Source: Candidatus Pelagibacter communis (lineage in GTDB: Bacteria > Pseudomonadota > Alphaproteobacteria > Pelagibacterales > Pelagibacteraceae). Taken from it: 43,911 bases of DNA. Position 1 is the stretch's first letter, and each line of letters begins with the position of its first letter. This document shows, piece by piece, positions 2,354 through 32,221 of this stretch. The notes beneath the pieces are model-generated. The model searched no databases, was not told the origin of the DNA, and worked only from the letters and a program-made list of their open reading frames with translations. The DNA lies in the NCBI RefSeq assembly GCF_001179965.1, contig NZ_CVSH01000049.1:1-43911 (forward strand), read 5' to 3'. A program made the translations under genes and the position numbers.

Positions 2354-3565
<1,212 letters not shown>

Positions 3566-25502: not shown

Positions 25503-27180
25503 TATTTGGGCCCACTAATAATTTTTTTTTTACTTTTTCTAACATATCTTTTTCTGTATCTTTAAATCCTATAACGCTATTCCAATAATACTTTGCTTGT
25601 ATTTTTTTATTAAGACTCCATAAAATATCACCATAATGGTCATTTACGATTGGATCATTGGGCATTAGCGTTATCGCTTTTCTCATGAATTTTTCTGCTT
25701 CTGTATATCTTCCTGTTAAATAATAACCCCAACCAACTGAGTCAGTGATATATGGATCATCCTCATTATTCTTATATGCAATCTCCAACATTTTTACAGC
25801 TTTCGAAATATTAATTTTTCTCTCAAGCCAAGAATAGGCTAAATAATTTAAAGTATAAGAATTATCTGGAACAATTTTTAATGCCGTTAATAAATCTTTA
25901 TCGCTCCTTTCAAAATTTGATAATCTTTCATAACTACCACCTCTTCTAAATAATAAATCAGCATAGGTATCTGAGTTAGTGTCATAATTTTTCATTAACT
26001 TAGAATAAAGTTCTATTGCTTCTTTATATTTTTTATAATTTTTATAAATATTTGCCATATCAAAGATAATCTTATCTGTTTTGTTTTCTATTTTATTAAA
26101 CTTCGTTTTAATATAATTCAACGCTTGTTGATCATCATGTTTCTCTGCAATTATTTTAGTTTTAATTTTCACTTTGAACCAATAAAATAGCTTATCCTGC
26201 TTACTAAAATTTTTTAATATTTTTTCAGCTTCTTTGTACTTTTTAGAATTAAAATAGTTTTCAACTGTTAATAGCTTATTTGCTTTAAATTTTTCATTTA
26301 AAAAATTAGAAACACTTAAGTAAAAGTTAGATCTTTCAAAATCTTCATCAGATGAATACAAATTTGAAATTAAGAAAAAAAATTCGGCTAAAAGATCAGT
26401 TTCGGACTTGCATGAAAATATATCGGTAATTTTTTTTGTTTGATTATTTTTTAACCAGTCATTTGTTTGAAGAATAAGCAGCCCACTTGTGAGTTTATCT
26501 TGTTTCAAAAAAAGTTTTTTTGCCTCTTCGAATTTATTTTGATTGATCAAATAATTAGAATAAAAGAATAAGTATCTTGAATAATCTACATTTGAAGAAT
26601 TAACCAAAGTATAGAATGACTTAGACGTGGTATCATCTTCTAAATAACATTTTAAAAATGTAATATTCAGAAGATCTAAATTATCAAAATTCGATTTTTG
26701 AAAAATCAGTTTTTTGTTTTTAAAAGTCGATAAGTATAACGTTAATGTATCATAGATTGCATTTTCATAAACGCTTGAACTTTTTAGTTCATTTAAATAT
26801 TCAAGATAATTTTCGCTCTCTTCATATTTCTCTTTTAAAATTGAGTCCAATGTCAAAAGCACCTGGGACTCAAAAAAATCAAAATCTTTTTTATTTTCTA
26901 AAATTTTTATTTCTTGAATTGCTTTTTTTACTTTCTGATTTATAGCTAGTGAGAAGATATATTTTCTTAAGTAATTATCACGTTTTTTTACTAATGCTTT
27001 TGACGAATTAAAATAACTTAACGAATCTTGGTTTTGTTGGTTATTATAAGAAATTATAGCTGAGAGATAATTGGTTAGTTCATTCTCATTTAAATCATTA
27101 TTTGTTACTTTGGAATTCGCCTGTTTGGCGAAAAAAAAGATCATTAGAATAAAGAAAAATTTAATAAATTTTGATATCAT
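25477..27180 (-). CDS. Secreted or periplasmic tetratricopeptide-repeat protein
   Basis: A 567-residue protein with an N-terminal signal peptide (FFFILMIFFFAKQANS) and otherwise helical sequence. The C-terminal 200 residues contain recognisable TPR units (ANIYKNYKKYKEAIELYSKL, the ADLLFRRGGSYERL region, GWGYYLTGRYTEAEKFMRKA). TPR proteins act as assembly platforms; the partner is unknown. A large TPR protein directly upstream of ispE recurs in alphaproteobacteria. Its start codon is 8 nt from that of the divergent uracil-DNA glycosylase. Confidence 0.8.
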   Translation of the reverse strand: MISKFIKFFFILMIFFFAKQANSKVTNNDLNENELTNYLSAIISYNNQQNQDSLSYFNSSKALVKKRDNYLRKYIFSLAINQKVKKAIQEIKILENKKDFDFFESQVLLTLDSILKEKYEESENYLEYLNELKSSSVYENAIYDTLTLYLSTFKNKKLIFQKSNFDNLDLLNITFLKCYLEDDTTSKSFYTLVNSSNVDYSRYLFFYSNYLINQNKFEEAKKLFLKQDKLTSGLLILQTNDWLKNNQTKKITDIFSCKSETDLLAEFFFLISNLYSSDEDFERSNFYLSVSNFLNEKFKANKLLTVENYFNSKKYKEAEKILKNFSKQDKLFYWFKVKIKTKIIAEKHDDQQALNYIKTKFNKIENKTDKIIFDMANIYKNYKKYKEAIELYSKLMKNYDTNSDTYADLLFRRGGSYERLSNFERSDKDLLTALKIVPDNSYTLNYLAYSWLERKINISKAVKMLEIAYKNNEDDPYITDSVGWGYYLTGRYTEAEKFMRKAITLMPNDPIVNDHYGDILWSLNKKIQAKYYWNSVIGFKDTEKDMLEKVKKKLLVGPNIDNNNSYN

Positions 27181-27188
27181 TTGTTTTT

Positions 27189-27875
27189 ATGAATAATGAA
27201 GTTTTAAATGATGAGTTTCTAAAATCAATAGACTCAAATTACGAATTTAGTAATAAACCAATAAGACGCCTGAAAAAGTCACAACAACCAGGTGAAATTA
27301 AATTACAACTAGAAAATCTTAAAAAACAAATTGCTGAAATTGACGCTTGTGATCTTAAAAATCATGCTAACCAGTTAGTTTTTAGTGATGGAAATTTTAG
27401 AAGTAAAATAATGCTTGTAGGTGAAGGCCCGGGTCAAAAAGAGGATGAAATAGGAAAACCTTTTATGGGCGATGCAGGAAAATTATTAAATAAAATGTTA
27501 GCAGCCATAGATATTAAAAGAGAAAGTATCTACATCACAAATGTTGTCAATTACAGGCCACCAAATAATAGAAAGCCAACAACTGCTGAGATAAATAAAT
27601 ATTCAAAATTTCTATATGAACATATTTCTATAATTAATCCTAAAATACTAATAATTATGGGTGGTACAGCAATGGAAGCATTGATTGGTAATAATTTTAA
27701 AATTTCTAAAGAGAGAGGAATATGGAAAGATGTTATTATAAAGGGCAAAACTTACTTATCCATTGTAACATTTCATCCTGCATATCTTTTAAGGCAACCA
27801 GATCAAAAAAAATATTCATGGATAGATTTAAAAGAAATAAGAAAAAAAATTAATGAATTGAATATCATTTTGTAA
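27189..27875 (+). CDS. Uracil-DNA glycosylase, family 4-like, lacking most Fe-S cysteines
   Basis: A protein of 228 residues from ATG 27189 (an in-frame ATG at 27171 would overlap the divergent gene). It has motif A GEGPGQKEDEIGKPFMGDAG, the NVVNYRPPNNRKPT segment and the HPAYLLRQP motif. It removes uracil from DNA in base excision repair. Classical family 4 enzymes bind a 4Fe-4S cluster with four Cys; here the Cys in NVVxCRPP is Tyr, the one in EIxxCxxFL is also Tyr, and only one of the first pair (DACDLKNHA) remains. A cluster is therefore unlikely. Confidence 0.85.
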   Translation: MNNEVLNDEFLKSIDSNYEFSNKPIRRLKKSQQPGEIKLQLENLKKQIAEIDACDLKNHANQLVFSDGNFRSKIMLVGEGPGQKEDEIGKPFMGDAGKLLNKMLAAIDIKRESIYITNVVNYRPPNNRKPTTAEINKYSKFLYEHISIINPKILIIMGGTAMEALIGNNFKISKERGIWKDVIIKGKTYLSIVTFHPAYLLRQPDQKKYSWIDLKEIRKKINELNIIL

Positions 27876-27876
27876 A

Positions 27877-28452
27877 ATGAAAAAAACTTTAGCTGGTGTG
27901 GATGAAGTTGGAAGAGGAAGTTTAATTGGTCCAGTCTTTGCTGCTGCTGTAATTCTTAATAATGACATCAATAAGAAAATACTTAAAGATTCAAAAAGTT
28001 TATCAAAAAATAAGCGTGAAAATTTAGAAAAATATATAAAGAAAAATTCAAAATGGTCAGTTGGTTCAGCGTCCGTAAAGGAAATAGAAAAATATAATAT
28101 TTTAAATGCAAGTCTGCTTGCAATGAAAAGAGCTATAAAAAAGTTAAAAATAAAACCAAAAATTATATTAGTTGATGGTAACAAAATTCCTGATATGAGG
28201 AGTTATAATTTAAAGTACGTAATTAAGGGTGACCAAAAGATACCTGAAATATCTGCTGCATCTATAATTGCAAAAGTATCACGAGATAGATTAATCAAAA
28301 AATTAGCAAAGATACATCATAGGTATTTCTGGCACAAAAACGCTGGCTACGGAACAAAAGACCATCTTAGGGCTCTTAAAAAATTTGGAGTTACCAAATA
28401 CCATAGAAAAAAATTTAAACCTATACACAACATATTGAGTCTCGAGAAATAA
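27877..28452 (+). CDS. rnhB: Ribonuclease HII
   Basis: A 191-residue nuclease that removes misinserted ribonucleotides and RNA primers from DNA. The acidic active site starts with AGVDEVGRGSLIGPV (Asp and Glu), continues with ILVDGNKIP, and the C-terminal FWHKNAGYGTKDHLRAL holds the GYGT block typical of type 2 enzymes. It follows the uracil-DNA glycosylase by one base and precedes ccrM, an order shared with other alphaproteobacteria. Confidence 0.96.
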   Translation: MKKTLAGVDEVGRGSLIGPVFAAAVILNNDINKKILKDSKSLSKNKRENLEKYIKKNSKWSVGSASVKEIEKYNILNASLLAMKRAIKKLKIKPKIILVDGNKIPDMRSYNLKYVIKGDQKIPEISAASIIAKVSRDRLIKKLAKIHHRYFWHKNAGYGTKDHLRALKKFGVTKYHRKKFKPIHNILSLEK

Positions 28453-28513
28453 CCACCACAAAAAGACTCAAAATAATTCAATCACAAGTTGACGAGGACT
28501 CTAGCCTAGAGTC
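28437..28513. promoter_or_regulatory. Cluster of four GANTC (CcrM) sites in front of ccrM
   Basis: GANTC sites lie at 28437-28441, 28465-28469, 28497-28501 and 28509-28513. The last two form a perfect inverted repeat, GACTCTA-GCC-TAGAGTC (28497-28513). GANTC is the known target of the CcrM family, whose gene starts at 28530. By rough base-frequency reasoning for so AT-rich a genome, fewer than one site would be expected in this span. Confidence 0.8.
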
Positions 28514-28517
28514 TAAT
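28489..28517 (+). promoter_or_regulatory. Near-consensus sigma70 promoter of ccrM containing the GANTC palindrome
   Basis: TTGACG at 28489-28494 (5/6) and TCTAAT at 28512-28517 (5/6) are separated by exactly 17 nt. The GANTC inverted repeat at 28497-28513 fills the spacer and enters the first two bases of the -10. A start site about 7 nt further on would leave a leader of only about 6 nt before the ATG. The repeat could alternatively act as a weak terminator hairpin for rnhB (it is followed by TTTTT). Confidence 0.6.
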
Positions 28518-28529
28518 AAGTTTTTAAAA

Positions 28530-29606
28530 ATGATCGATAATAAATTAAAAAATAAAATTGTTAATGGAAACAGTATTAAAGAACTAAAAAAAATTCCAAG
28601 CGAAAGTTTTGATTTAATTTTTGCGGATCCACCTTACAATTTACAATTACGAAATAATTTAATTAGACCAGATAGATCAAAAGTAAATGCTGTAAACGAT
28701 AAATGGGATCAATTTGAAAGTTTCAAAACATACGATGATTTTACTTATACTTGGCTTAGTGAGTGTAAAAGAGTTTTAAAAAAAAATGGAGCAATTTGGG
28801 TGATTGGAAGTTACCATAATATATTCAGAGTTGGTACAGCAATTCAAAACCTAGGTTTTTGGATTTTAAATGATGTTATATGGAATAAAAAAAATCCAAT
28901 GCCAAACTTTAGAGGCACACGTTTTACCAATGCGCATGAAACTTTGATTTGGGCTTCAAAATCTGAAAAATCAAAATATACTTTTAATTATCAGTCTTTA
29001 AAATGCTTAAACGATGATATTCAAATGAGATCTAATTGGGATTTACCCATTTGTAGTGGTACTGAAAGACTAAAAAAAAATGGAAAGAAAATACACTCAA
29101 CACAAAAACCTGAAGCTTTATTACATAGAATTTTATTAGCAACCTCAAATAAAAGCGATTATATCTTAGATCCTTTTTTAGGATCTGGAACAACAGCTGC
29201 AGTTTCAAAAAAATTAGGAAGGAATTATTTTGGCATAGAAAAAGATAAAAATTACTGCAAGGCTGCAGAACAAAGATTAAGTGAAACAAAACCTATTGAA
29301 GATGATTATTTAGATACACTCCAAAATAATAGATCTAAACCGAGAATACCTTTTGGCTCGTTAGTTGAATTGGGAATAATTAAACCGGGAACTACTATTT
29401 TTGATAATAAAAAGAAAATTAGCGCAAAAATCATGGTCGATGGTAGTATAAAACATGCTCAAACTGAGGGATCAATCCATAAAGTAGCAGCAACAATTTT
29501 AGGTGCTGAAAGTTGTAATGGTTGGACATTTTGGCACTACAATAGAAACGGATCCATTTTTCCTATTGATAATTTAAGAGATCGATTTTTAAAAAACAAA
29601 ATTTAA
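28530..29606 (+). CDS. ccrM: Adenine-specific DNA methyltransferase CcrM (GANTC family)
   Basis: A 358-residue beta-class N6-adenine methyltransferase. The catalytic DPPYNL is near residue 33, and the SAM-binding motif I LDPFLGSGTTAAVSKKLGR comes later, which is the beta order. The C-terminal about 90 residues (LVELGIIKPGTTIF to GWTFWHYNRNGS) form the RAMA domain found in CcrM. Family members methylate GANTC and in Caulobacter coordinate replication with gene expression. No restriction endonuclease is nearby, which fits an orphan cell-cycle methylase. Four GANTC sites lie directly upstream. Confidence 0.93.
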   Translation: MIDNKLKNKIVNGNSIKELKKIPSESFDLIFADPPYNLQLRNNLIRPDRSKVNAVNDKWDQFESFKTYDDFTYTWLSECKRVLKKNGAIWVIGSYHNIFRVGTAIQNLGFWILNDVIWNKKNPMPNFRGTRFTNAHETLIWASKSEKSKYTFNYQSLKCLNDDIQMRSNWDLPICSGTERLKKNGKKIHSTQKPEALLHRILLATSNKSDYILDPFLGSGTTAAVSKKLGRNYFGIEKDKNYCKAAEQRLSETKPIEDDYLDTLQNNRSKPRIPFGSLVELGIIKPGTTIFDNKKKISAKIMVDGSIKHAQTEGSIHKVAATILGAESCNGWTFWHYNRNGSIFPIDNLRDRFLKNKI

Positions 29607-29615
29607 TTTCAAAAT

Positions 29616-30758
29616 TTATCTGTAAATTTTACCAAGATAGTTTTCTAAAAACTTTTTATTTTTAACTAATTTTTTTAAAAAAATATTTCTTAAAAAAATT
29701 GTTAAAGGGTTAGATAAATGAAATATAAATTGGTTGATTTTTGATCTTTTATTCACCATTTTTATTTTTTTTACTCTCTCCTCAAAAAAACTATTTTCTG
29801 TATTGCTATCTATTTTTTTAAATAATTCATAAGCTCCCTCTATCGATTGAGAAGCACCTTGTGCAAATGATGGGGGGAAAGCAAAAAAAGCATCTCCAAT
29901 TGGGTAAATGTTATTTTTCTTAATTTCAAAAAAATGATCGGTTACGAATACTGGAAATATTTTTAGTTGTTTAATTTCATCAAAAAATTTCTTACTTTCT
30001 TGAGGTATATTTTTTAAAACTTTTTTTATAAAAGCGTTATCATTAAATAATGAATAATTCTTAAGCTCTTCGTCTGAAAGCTTGTATTTCATAATAGCTA
30101 TAAAATTTAAATCACCATCTGGATTTAGTGGATAAATAACGTGGTGAAAATCAGAACCGAAGAATAAGGAAATATTTTTTTTATCAATAATATTTGAGGA
30201 ATTAGGGATCATCCCTCTTATAGCTAAAGTATTATTATATCTTGGTTTAGTATTATTATTTGAAATAAGATTTTTACTCTTTGAAAAAACTCCGTCTGAA
30301 ATTATCAAATAATCGCACTCAAAAGTTTCATTATTTTCAAAAGTTAAATGAATTTTTTCATTTTGTTGGTCTATCTTTGAAATACTGTGGTTAGTTTTTA
30401 TTAAATCCTGAATTTTATCTTTTAGGAAATTTACTAAATCTGATCGTTTAAGTGTTGTATATTTACAATCATGTGAATTGAAATCAGAAATATATAGATC
30501 ACAAAACCTATCCTGGCTTTTATTTGAATAAAAAATTATTTTATCAGGATTAAACTTTTTATCATTTTGAAATTTATGAAATTCGATTTTATTTAAAAGT
30601 CTAACACTATTGACTGATAATTGAATTCCATACCCCTCATCTAAATTAATTAATTTGTCTTTTTCAAAAATTTTAATTTCATAATTTGAATTATTTTTAA
30701 AAAGATTTGCAATAAATAATCCTGAAATTCCTGCTCCAATAATTGCAACTTTTTTCAT
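29616..30758 (-). CDS. FAD-dependent monooxygenase (UbiH/aromatic hydroxylase superfamily)
   Basis: A 380-residue flavoprotein. The N-terminal Rossmann motif is VAIIGAGISGLFIA, followed by an acidic residue at the end of strand 2 (IFEKD). The second FAD block is YPIGDAFFAFPPSFAQGASQSIEGA, and the DG motif is LIISDGVFSKS. This is the pattern of class A flavin hydroxylases (UbiH, salicylate hydroxylase, zeaxanthin epoxidase). The substrate cannot be told; a role in ubiquinone or aromatic metabolism is one possibility. Its start codon overlaps the mutY stop. Confidence 0.8.
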   Translation of the reverse strand: MKKVAIIGAGISGLFIANLFKNNSNYEIKIFEKDKLINLDEGYGIQLSVNSVRLLNKIEFHKFQNDKKFNPDKIIFYSNKSQDRFCDLYISDFNSHDCKYTTLKRSDLVNFLKDKIQDLIKTNHSISKIDQQNEKIHLTFENNETFECDYLIISDGVFSKSKNLISNNNTKPRYNNTLAIRGMIPNSSNIIDKKNISLFFGSDFHHVIYPLNPDGDLNFIAIMKYKLSDEELKNYSLFNDNAFIKKVLKNIPQESKKFFDEIKQLKIFPVFVTDHFFEIKKNNIYPIGDAFFAFPPSFAQGASQSIEGAYELFKKIDSNTENSFFEERVKKIKMVNKRSKINQFIFHLSNPLTIFLRNIFLKKLVKNKKFLENYLGKIYR

Positions 30759-31738
30759 TAGTTGCTCTCTAAATATTGAACTATTTTTTTTGTAAAGGTT
30801 GGCAGCAGATAATTATCAAGTTTTTTTTGATCTATCCAATTAGAAGATGGAAAGTCCTCATGATTTTTTTTATATTGAATTTTAATATTCATGTTCATAT
30901 TCGAAATTTTAAAATTTAGATTTTCATTAAAATTTTTTGGTTTAGCAACCTCCTCCATAGGAAATATATTAAGATTCTTTAAAAAATTAAATTTTGTATT
31001 CTTTATAAGAAGATATTTTTTATCCCTCTTGTAAACTTTTAAAATAAAATATTTGTTTACATTTTTTTTATTTTTCTTTGTTAATCCAAAATCCTGTTTT
31101 TTAAAAGATTTACATTTTTTTTGGATAGGGCATTGATTACATAAAGGATTACTTGGTTTACAAATAAGTGCACCTATTTCCATAAGAGCCTGTGCATAAT
31201 CACTAGATCTATTGGACTTGCCAAAAATAGATTTTTTTTGCGCGAGATTTTCTTTCTTAATTTCACTTTCTTTTTTTAAATATAGATATCTTTTCAAAAC
31301 TCTTTCTATATTTCCATCTAGTGGTATGTACGGTTCATTAAAAGCAATGGCAAGTATTGCGCTAGCAGTGTAATTACCAATACCTGGCAATGCTTTTAAA
31401 TCTTCAAAATTATTAGGTATCTCTCCTTTATGCTTCTTAAGTATAATTTGTGCAGTTTTTTTAAGATTTCTGGCTCTTGAATAGTAACCTAGGCCTTGCC
31501 AACATTTCATTAACCTTTTGTTATTTACTTTTGCTAGTTTTTCTAAATTAGGAATTAATCTTACAAAATTATTAAAGTAAGGAATCACAGTCTTAACCTG
31601 TGTTTGTTGCAACATAAACTCACTAACAATTATAAAATATTGTTTTTGTTTTTTTGAAAGATGGCTTCTCCATGGTAACTTTCTCTTATTATTATCGTAC
31701 CAATAGAGAATTTTTTTTGATAAGCTATCTTTCTTCAT
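30758..31738 (-). CDS. mutY: Adenine DNA glycosylase MutY
   Basis: A 326-residue base-excision enzyme removing adenine opposite 8-oxoguanine. It has EFMLQQTQVKTV (catalytic Glu and intercalating Gln), the helix-hairpin-helix LPGIGNYTASAILAIAF followed by the catalytic Asp in PLDGNIERVL, and a 4Fe-4S site of spacing C-x6-C-x2-C-x5-C (CKPSNPLCNQCPIQKKC). A short C-terminal Nudix-like domain reads the 8-oxoguanine. The start codon abuts that of the divergent dciA-like gene with no base between. Confidence 0.95.
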   Translation of the reverse strand: MKKDSLSKKILYWYDNNKRKLPWRSHLSKKQKQYFIIVSEFMLQQTQVKTVIPYFNNFVRLIPNLEKLAKVNNKRLMKCWQGLGYYSRARNLKKTAQIILKKHKGEIPNNFEDLKALPGIGNYTASAILAIAFNEPYIPLDGNIERVLKRYLYLKKESEIKKENLAQKKSIFGKSNRSSDYAQALMEIGALICKPSNPLCNQCPIQKKCKSFKKQDFGLTKKNKKNVNKYFILKVYKRDKKYLLIKNTKFNFLKNLNIFPMEEVAKPKNFNENLNFKISNMNMNIKIQYKKNHEDFPSSNWIDQKKLDNYLLPTFTKKIVQYLESN

Positions 31739-32221
31739 ATGAAATTAAAATCTTATAGTAAGCAACGAACGAGGTCCGTTCAAGGATTAAGATCTTTCAA
31801 GGATACATTGCCACTAAAAGTTAGAGGAATTTTAAAAAAAAAAGGACGCATATACTCTGAGTTGTTAGATAACTGGAGGCATATTGTAGGAAACGACTTA
31901 TTTAAAATTTGTTATCCAAAATCATTTAAAAGTGAAAATAAATTCAGAGGAAGTCTTTTAGAAATAATGGTTAAAAGAGGACATGAGGTAGATTTGGAAT
32001 ATTCCAAAAAAATAATAATCGAAAAGGTAAATAAATATTTTGAACAAAATATTCTTAAAAATATAAAGCTCATTACATTTGAGGGTGTGAATGATAAATT
32101 TAAAATAAAACATAACGACAATGTGACAAAAAGTGAGTATACAAAAAAAATATCAAATATTAAAAATGATAAGATTAAAAATTCTTTATTAGAGATGAGT
32201 AAATATTTTAAAAAAATATGA
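31739..32221 (+). CDS. DUF721 / DciA-like protein
   Basis: A 160-residue basic protein. The core LLDNWRHIVGNDLFKICYPKSF followed by a beta-strand region with LLEIMVKRGHEVDLEYSK and INKYF-like sequence matches DUF721, whose member DciA loads or recruits the replicative helicase DnaB in bacteria lacking DnaC. The first about 30 residues are rich in Arg and Ser. It shares ATGA with the following thiol oxidoreductase gene. The order mutY-DUF721-dsbA-smc recurs in alphaproteobacteria. Confidence 0.8.
   Translation: MKLKSYSKQRTRSVQGLRSFKDTLPLKVRGILKKKGRIYSELLDNWRHIVGNDLFKICYPKSFKSENKFRGSLLEIMVKRGHEVDLEYSKKIIIEKVNKYFEQNILKNIKLITFEGVNDKFKIKHNDNVTKSEYTKKISNIKNDKIKNSLLEMSKYFKKI
31755..31783 (-). promoter_or_regulatory. 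Possible mutY promoter inside the divergent dciA-like gene
   Basis: On the minus strand TTGAAC (plus positions 31778-31783) precedes TACTAT (31755-31760) by 17 nt, each a 4/6 match, with the mutY ATG starting about 17 nt after the -10. It lies wholly within the coding sequence of the divergent neighbour, as the abutting start codons require. The evidence is weak because of the AT-rich background. Confidence 0.25.

Follow-up and report, generated by a model that had tools for sequence, protein, structure and literature searches.

The segment at positions 28437-28529 of the window (the whole stretch of 43,911 nt analyzed here, which is contig C49 of a source genome available as an 801,227-base draft, 67.7% complete) appears, on balance, to contain the core promoter of ccrM in an old alphaproteobacterial design that reads methylation, with GcrA and sigma70 as the likely reader in SAR11. 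The conserved core promoter of ccrM, with methylation sites embedded in it, is itself real; the GANTC cluster by itself says little against chance, and the inverted repeat within it nothing, so that the case for function rests on conservation. The features of the locus are as follows.

27877-28452, plus strand: rnhB (ribonuclease HII), the gene 5' of ccrM, whose final codons hold the first GANTC
28437-28441, no strand assigned: GANTC site 1 (GAGTC), within rnhB, found in part of the relatives
28465-28469, no strand assigned: GANTC site 2 (GACTC), 5' of the promoter, found in part of the relatives
28477-28483, plus strand: TTCAATC box, with 98-100% conservation in each column of the genus set, a value raised by inclusion of the box in the search anchor
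28489-28494, plus strand: −35 hexamer TTGACG, from the sequence and genus conservation
28497-28501, no strand assigned: distal GANTC (GACTC), offset +8 from TTGAC
28509-28513, no strand assigned: proximal GANTC (GAGTC), offset +20, overlapping the first two −10 bases
28512-28517, plus strand: −10 hexamer TCTAAT, with C, not A, at position 2
28523-28525, plus strand: predicted transcription start, placed from the −10 position, about 5-7 nt before the ATG
28530-29606, plus strand: ccrM, GANTC adenine methyltransferase with a RAMA domain, 358 aa (NF050803, E 3.8e-174)

The ccrM product combines an N6 methylase with a C-terminal RAMA domain and full-length similarity to CcrMI (residues 9-351 align to the solved structure 6pbd, E 4.2e-140), and its closest named relatives are from Pelagibacteraceae, which places the source genome among SAR11-type bacteria; it should be noted that its score against NF050803, 578.6 bits, is under the model cut-off of 830. 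An earlier start codon was considered, the frame being open 5' of the ATG in close kin, yet in other relatives stops are present there, and the ATG at 28530 was therefore kept. Genes for DNA maintenance flank ccrM in the window (27171-32221), comprising a uracil-DNA glycosylase family member, rnhB, a MutY-like glycosylase (named by reading its sequence only), and DciA.

The initial annotation placed four GANTC sites in 77 bp just before ccrM. All four are present, at 28437, 28465, 28497, and 28509, and three do lie just before the gene, but the first is inside the rnhB frame. The −35 and −10 hexamers are separated by a spacer of 17 nt (28495-28511), and the inverted repeat GACTCTA-GCC-TAGAGTC occupies 28497-28513; the repeat had been described as filling the spacer and touching the −10, and both repeat and spacer are as described, but the fill is not exact, since the repeat begins 2 nt into the spacer and ends 2 nt into the −10. 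Both GANTC sites of the pair lie between, or touch, the −35 and −10 hexamers, and the lower-strand adenine of the proximal site, a predicted CcrM target, is opposite the T at −10 position 1. A consensus promoter scan misses this promoter because the scan requires A at −10 position 2, where C is found here. In 69 of 72 genus sequences, 12-13 nt separate TAAT from the ATG, from which a leader of about 5-7 nt is predicted, so that the ccrM mRNA would be nearly leaderless. The TTCAATC box is also visible in an unanchored print of the genus upstream sequences. The ATTCAA in this region stands at the place where other Alphaproteobacteria often carry an upstream GATTCAA; TTCAATC is 34 bp before the proximal site here, and GATTCAA is at 33-35 bp in 31 of 37 cases in the class. 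The box is possibly, to judge from this placement, a remnant of the upstream GATTCAA of other orders.

Considered alone, the GANTC cluster is only mildly unusual, and the palindrome is not unusual at all. The window has fewer GANTC sites than its shuffles (65, against a mean of 115.8), and when 65 sites were placed at random, four fell within 77 bp somewhere in a window of this size in 51 of 5000 trials; in dinucleotide shuffles, which hold more sites, this occurred in 11 of 200. These frequencies leave some room for a chance clustering of GANTC without function, but the genus-wide and class-wide conservation described below, compared with shuffles, makes that explanation virtually negligible. 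Perfect 7-bp inverted repeats (loops of 3-5) are frequent, the window having 56 of them. The 17-mer repeat pattern has a single occurrence in the 0.8-Mb draft genome. GANTC being palindromic, any two sites with complementary middle bases yield a 5-bp inverted repeat for nothing.

These considerations bear on the proposal, made in the initial annotation, that the palindrome acts as a unit and may be an operator for an unknown dimeric protein. The repeat is perfect over 7 bp here, and 28 of the 57 genus pairs have arms that match at 6 or 7 of the 7 positions, but random re-pairing of the arms gives a mean of 24.4 and a largest value of 32, and exact 7-bp arms are found in just 2 of 61 distinct genus promoters. 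The corresponding values for the class are 10 of 44 pairs, with a mean of 6.7 and a largest value of 13 on random re-pairing (two SAR11-family genomes, G307 and G198, were left out of this comparison). Since the arm match equals that from random re-pairing, the pairing of the arms is not itself conserved; the palindrome as a unit was accordingly abandoned, and an operator, in a window where equally good repeats abound, is highly improbable.

The position and spacing of the sites, as opposed to their pairing, are maintained in the genus. A ccrM match was obtained in 77 of 101 genus genomes, and in 15 of the 16 genomes with a completeness of 90% or more. From these, 73 upstream loci (L003-L075) were taken, 71 of which were anchored by script, giving 61 distinct sequences, one of them probably mis-anchored (its −10 was given as TTAGGC); the two loci missed by the anchor were judged by eye, and L029 has both sites whereas L047 has the proximal site only. 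TTGAC was the anchor of the alignment and is hence fixed. Relative to it, the distal GANTC is at +8 in 33 and at +9 in 25 of the 61 distinct sequences (58 in total), the proximal GANTC is at +20 in 59, both sites are intact in 57, and TCTAAT is present in 58. No sequence of the 61 has A at −10 position 2, and 60 have C. The distal site moves by one base between clades while the distance from TTGAC to TCTAAT stays constant. The comparison of the rnhB-ccrM gap across SAR11 that the initial annotation had proposed therefore has a divided outcome, the −35/−10 spacing being constant and the repeat arms not, and its view that methylatable sites lie inside the ccrM core promoter holds far beyond the source genome.

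The paired motif occurs 71 times in 92 SAR11 loci (366,871 bases, some of the loci coming from the same genomes), and every occurrence is of the ccrM type. A related paired pattern gave 69 sites in 65 of the 101 genus genomes, 63 of the sites being at ccrM when compared with the ccrM matches; this pattern missed the window and some of its kin because it required T after TAAT. In a further SAR11 clade (L190-L203), 10 of 14 loci have GANTC at +9 and +25; L196 and L202 carry the +9 site only, L201 the +25 site only, and L203, which was beyond the range of the script and was judged by eye, has the +9 site. In three deep SAR11 relatives (L205, L206, and L213) TTGAC has no GANTC in its vicinity. The +8/+20 pair is present in a further SAR11 relative, L204.

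The repeat might instead form a hairpin that serves as an intrinsic terminator of rnhB. A terminator scan does flag a stem at 28496-28514 followed by AATAAGTTTT (1 found, against 0.1 in shuffles), and folding of six genus sequences yielded a hairpin in each, which in one case was strong (z −5.68), but the fold in the window is unexceptional (z −1.55, matched by 13 of 200 shuffles), and another of the six does no better than chance (z 0.33). Furthermore, the T tract is late here and absent in several relatives, and the pairing varies between clades while GANTC remains, so that an intrinsic terminator of rnhB is very unlikely here.

The arrangement extends to the class. Among 230 alphaproteobacterial genomes of about 150 families, 189 gave a CcrM match, and 129 upstream regions were taken, mostly the best-scoring ones, with lower-scoring and some contig-edge regions left out; 126 were used, L294 being too short and L229 and L234 not being located by script. 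The pattern TTGAC-N1-5-GANTC-N4-7-GANTC is present in 45 of the 126 and in none of 100 rounds of shuffling, and at least one GANTC within TTGAC-N0-14 is present in 84 (shuffles, mean 2.02 and largest 7). When one genome per family was counted, 30 of 74 have the pair and 51 of 74 have at least one spacer site. The remaining 42 of the 126 regions have no GANTC within TTGAC-N0-14, and 20 of these are without any TTGAC. Measured from TTGAC, GANTC sites in the class are concentrated at +7 to +10 and, in a sharp maximum of 50 sites, at +19; another peak is seen at −15, and minor ones at −5 and +2. The distance between proximal and distal sites is 11, about one helical turn, in 26 of the 45 pairs.

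The two most important bases of the −10 are the A at position 2 and the T at position 6. In all 50 class regions with a +19 site, the −10 that follows a 17-nt spacer reads C-A-n-n-n-T, where the C is the last base of GANTC but A2 and T6 were not part of the search. The presence of both in 50 of 50 argues strongly, from within the data, for genuine promoters whose −10 is abutted by the proximal site. The SAR11 proximal site is shifted by one base relative to the class and covers the first two −10 bases, with C in place of A; the SAR11 ccrM promoters without A2 stand in this respect against 50 of 50 class +19 promoters with it. Retention of the site at the cost of A2 suggests, from these comparisons, that the site matters and that the promoter may need help in opening.

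Some other elements occur near ccrM promoters of the class. Boxes of the form TTAA-N6-8-TTAA, which are CtrA-like, are present in 11 of the 126 upstream regions (for example, L225 and L226), and a proximal GANTC is found in 2 of these 11 as against 55 of the 115 other regions (Fisher p 0.11), which hints at two alternative types of ccrM promoter, one with a CtrA box and one with a proximal GANTC. Nine-mers resembling DnaA boxes (TTATCCACA, its complement, and close variants) lie near the ccrM promoter in 14 of the 126 (for example, L314, L327, and L338), and in L314 one such 9-mer occupies the spacer where the distal GANTC would otherwise be.

GcrA binds promoters with methylated GANTC and helps sigma70 to open them, according to the accessible text of several reports (PMC3667746, PMC7403470, PMC7987155). 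The protein is encoded in the source genome, where its residues 1-52 and 99-148, the DNA-binding and sigma-binding parts (domain names as in the accessible part of PMC7403470), align to solved GcrA structures, and it was found in 89 of the 101 genus genomes and in 14 of the 16 most complete ones (90% or more). For the class, a GcrA profile was built that recovered the protein in 16 of 16 Pfam-positive test genomes kept apart from its construction, and in none of the 26 GcrA-negative genomes. CtrA was not among the four OmpR-type regulators of a 99% complete relative (G081) scanned with NCBIfam, the best CtrA model scoring 124.6 bits against a cut-off of 350; the OmpR-type regulators of seven genus genomes fall into four groups by eye (six of the genomes, including the source genome, were judged by eye only). 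The accessible part of a 2010 survey by Brilli reports no ctrA in Pelagibacter (PMC2877005), and no CtrA box of the form TTAA-N6-8-TTAA was seen by eye before ccrM in the window. With CtrA not found in the scanned relative and GcrA encoded, GcrA-sigma70 is the first choice as the reader in SAR11. Also recurrent in the genus is a small winged-helix protein of the OmpR type, about 190 aa long (L137-L142, one in each of six genomes), with an N-terminal part that does not resemble an ordinary receiver.

Several results bear on how far GcrA accounts for the design. The expected association of the pair with GcrA was not found in the class, where 34 of 100 GcrA-positive and 11 of 26 GcrA-negative genomes have the pair, and the proximal site likewise does not follow GcrA (42 of 100 and 15 of 26, respectively). 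Of the 26 GcrA-negative genomes, 19 are at least 90% complete. The GcrA-negative lineages may have another reader, or their GcrA may be too divergent to be recognized or lie outside the draft assemblies. The suggestion in the initial annotation that hemimethylation could switch ccrM without other regulators thus has points on both sides, the GcrA encoded in the source genome speaking against it and the GcrA-negative genomes with a proximal site for it. The extended motif YGAKTCG, described for Caulobacter GcrA promoters and, in the accessible text, not detected in Brevundimonas (PMC7987155), does not match the ccrM sites of the window (GGACTCT and AGAGTCT). Few Pelagibacter orthologs have a high probability of GcrA control in a regulon model, as far as the available part of the same source reports (PMC7987155).

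It may be that RNA polymerase reads the methylation itself, without GcrA, through effects of m6A at the −10 or −35 on melting or on sigma contact. The GcrA-negative genomes that keep the proximal site or the pair favor such direct reading, as does the base pairing in SAR11 of the lower-strand adenine with the first −10 base. However, a lack of GcrA in drafts does not prove its absence, it is present in most of the genus, and it is an established reader of such promoters (accessible parts of PMC3667746 and PMC7403470); direct reading is thus possible, although we consider it rather unlikely, and GcrA-sigma70 is preferred for SAR11.

The methylation state of these sites can be considered in light of published data. 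In one cultured Pelagibacter, full methylation was recorded at 3477 of 3482 GANTC sites, and in several sea samples the methylated fraction is lower near the origin, which was read as hemimethylation linked to replication (accessible part of PMC9516812). A different type of switch would arise by competition, if bound GcrA or RNA polymerase shielded the sites from CcrM, so that methylation would report occupancy and not replication. The observation that 42 of 1719 Pelagibacter GANTC sites, mostly intergenic, are unmethylated in all sea samples is in keeping with shielding, but the near-complete methylation in culture is not, and ccrM is not named among the unmethylated sites in the accessible text (PMC9516812). 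Competition is, in our judgment, quite improbable, and the reading of replication through GcrA-sigma70 is retained.

Promoters sensitive to methylation are already known, and those of Caulobacter provide the closest comparisons. The Caulobacter ftsZ promoter has GANTC between the −35 and −10, as here, and mipZ has GANTC close to the start; the output of both depends on methylation, and both are activated by CcrM methylation (accessible part of PMC3708114). The present promoter differs from these in that it belongs to ccrM itself and carries a pair of sites spaced by one turn, the proximal one lying against the −10 or overlapping it. In Caulobacter ctrA P1, GANTC is also within a sigma70 promoter, whose activity depends on GcrA and hemimethylation, and GcrA protects the region from −35 to −10 when P1 is fully methylated (available text of PMC3667746); that GANTC is at about −29, however, and controls ctrA (available text of PMC4287350), a gene that seems to be absent in SAR11. 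GANTC between −10 and −35 also marks one timing cluster of Caulobacter transcription starts (PMC4287350, in the part available). The Caulobacter ccrM promoter likewise contains GANTC and is reportedly active only from a hemimethylated chromosome (accessible parts of PMC2217572 and PMC8865702), but it is driven by CtrA, whereas before ccrM in the window no TTAA-N7-TTAA was seen and CtrA was not found. Brilli and coworkers counted GANTC in 500-bp promoter regions of alphaproteobacterial cell-cycle genes, and the accessible part of their report draws no conclusion on control (PMC2877005). We did not find a conserved +8/+19 GANTC pair on ccrM in the open-licence literature, which was searched in part only, and the two-site ccrM design is, within that scope, a variant of these known promoters.

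A second promoter with the pattern TTGAC-N3-5-GANTC-N-GATTC, often TGTGATTC, recurs in the class (L352-L369), and in 14 of 18 chosen loci a start codon follows after 9-13 nt. Of the proteins encoded downstream, the three that were scanned are DivIC/FtsB-like initiators of septum formation (PF04977, Pfam, full-length), and others resemble them by eye; a fragment of 60 residues from a DivIC-like protein had no NCBIfam match, and in L360, L365, and L368 the longest frame picked is not DivIC/FtsB-like. Like that of ccrM, this promoter has TTGAC and two GANTC sites in or next to the spacer, but the second site is about 2-3 nt further downstream and the gene is different. A looser search for members of a wider regulon (TTG-N17-GANTCTANT) had matches in at least 100 of the 101 genus genomes, mostly several sites each beside that of ccrM; among the matches listed, those to controls were fewer but not few, and some near-identical sites that recur in several genomes look like shared coding sequence. 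The gene gcrA itself has no GANTC in the 150 bp upstream at 13 of 13 loci.

The observations outlined above suggest a mechanism in which two CcrM targets, spaced by roughly one helical turn and lying between the −35 and −10, with the proximal one abutting the −10 in other orders and overlapping it in SAR11, would normally be methylated, so that the ccrM promoter would read the methylation state of its own locus. Passage of the replication fork would leave the promoter hemimethylated until CcrM restored full methylation, and ccrM transcription would follow this cycle, giving a self-timed supply of the enzyme. In SAR11, where CtrA is apparently missing, the likely reader is GcrA on sigma70-RNA polymerase; its DNA-binding domain would contact methylated GANTC, and its sigma-binding domain would help to open a TCTAAT that lacks the key A2. 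In SAR11 and in many other Alphaproteobacteria, CcrM therefore probably senses its own work through the methylation of its promoter, and by analogy with Caulobacter the activity of the promoter would be expected to peak soon after the fork passes. More tentatively, the ancestral alphaproteobacterial ccrM promoter may have been a built-in sensor, even without GcrA or CtrA, that allowed CcrM to time itself, with CtrA added later in some orders.

SAR11, in which this promoter is present, are among the most abundant bacteria in the sea, and their cell-cycle control is little known. The timing of CcrM in Caulobacter is explained through CtrA, and the use of CcrM sites as bases of the core promoter would be a simpler and perhaps older circuit. 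The exact bases are given here for mutation or for inspection in existing long-read data, and the lineages with and without GcrA would separate methylation sensing that depends on GcrA from sensing that does not.
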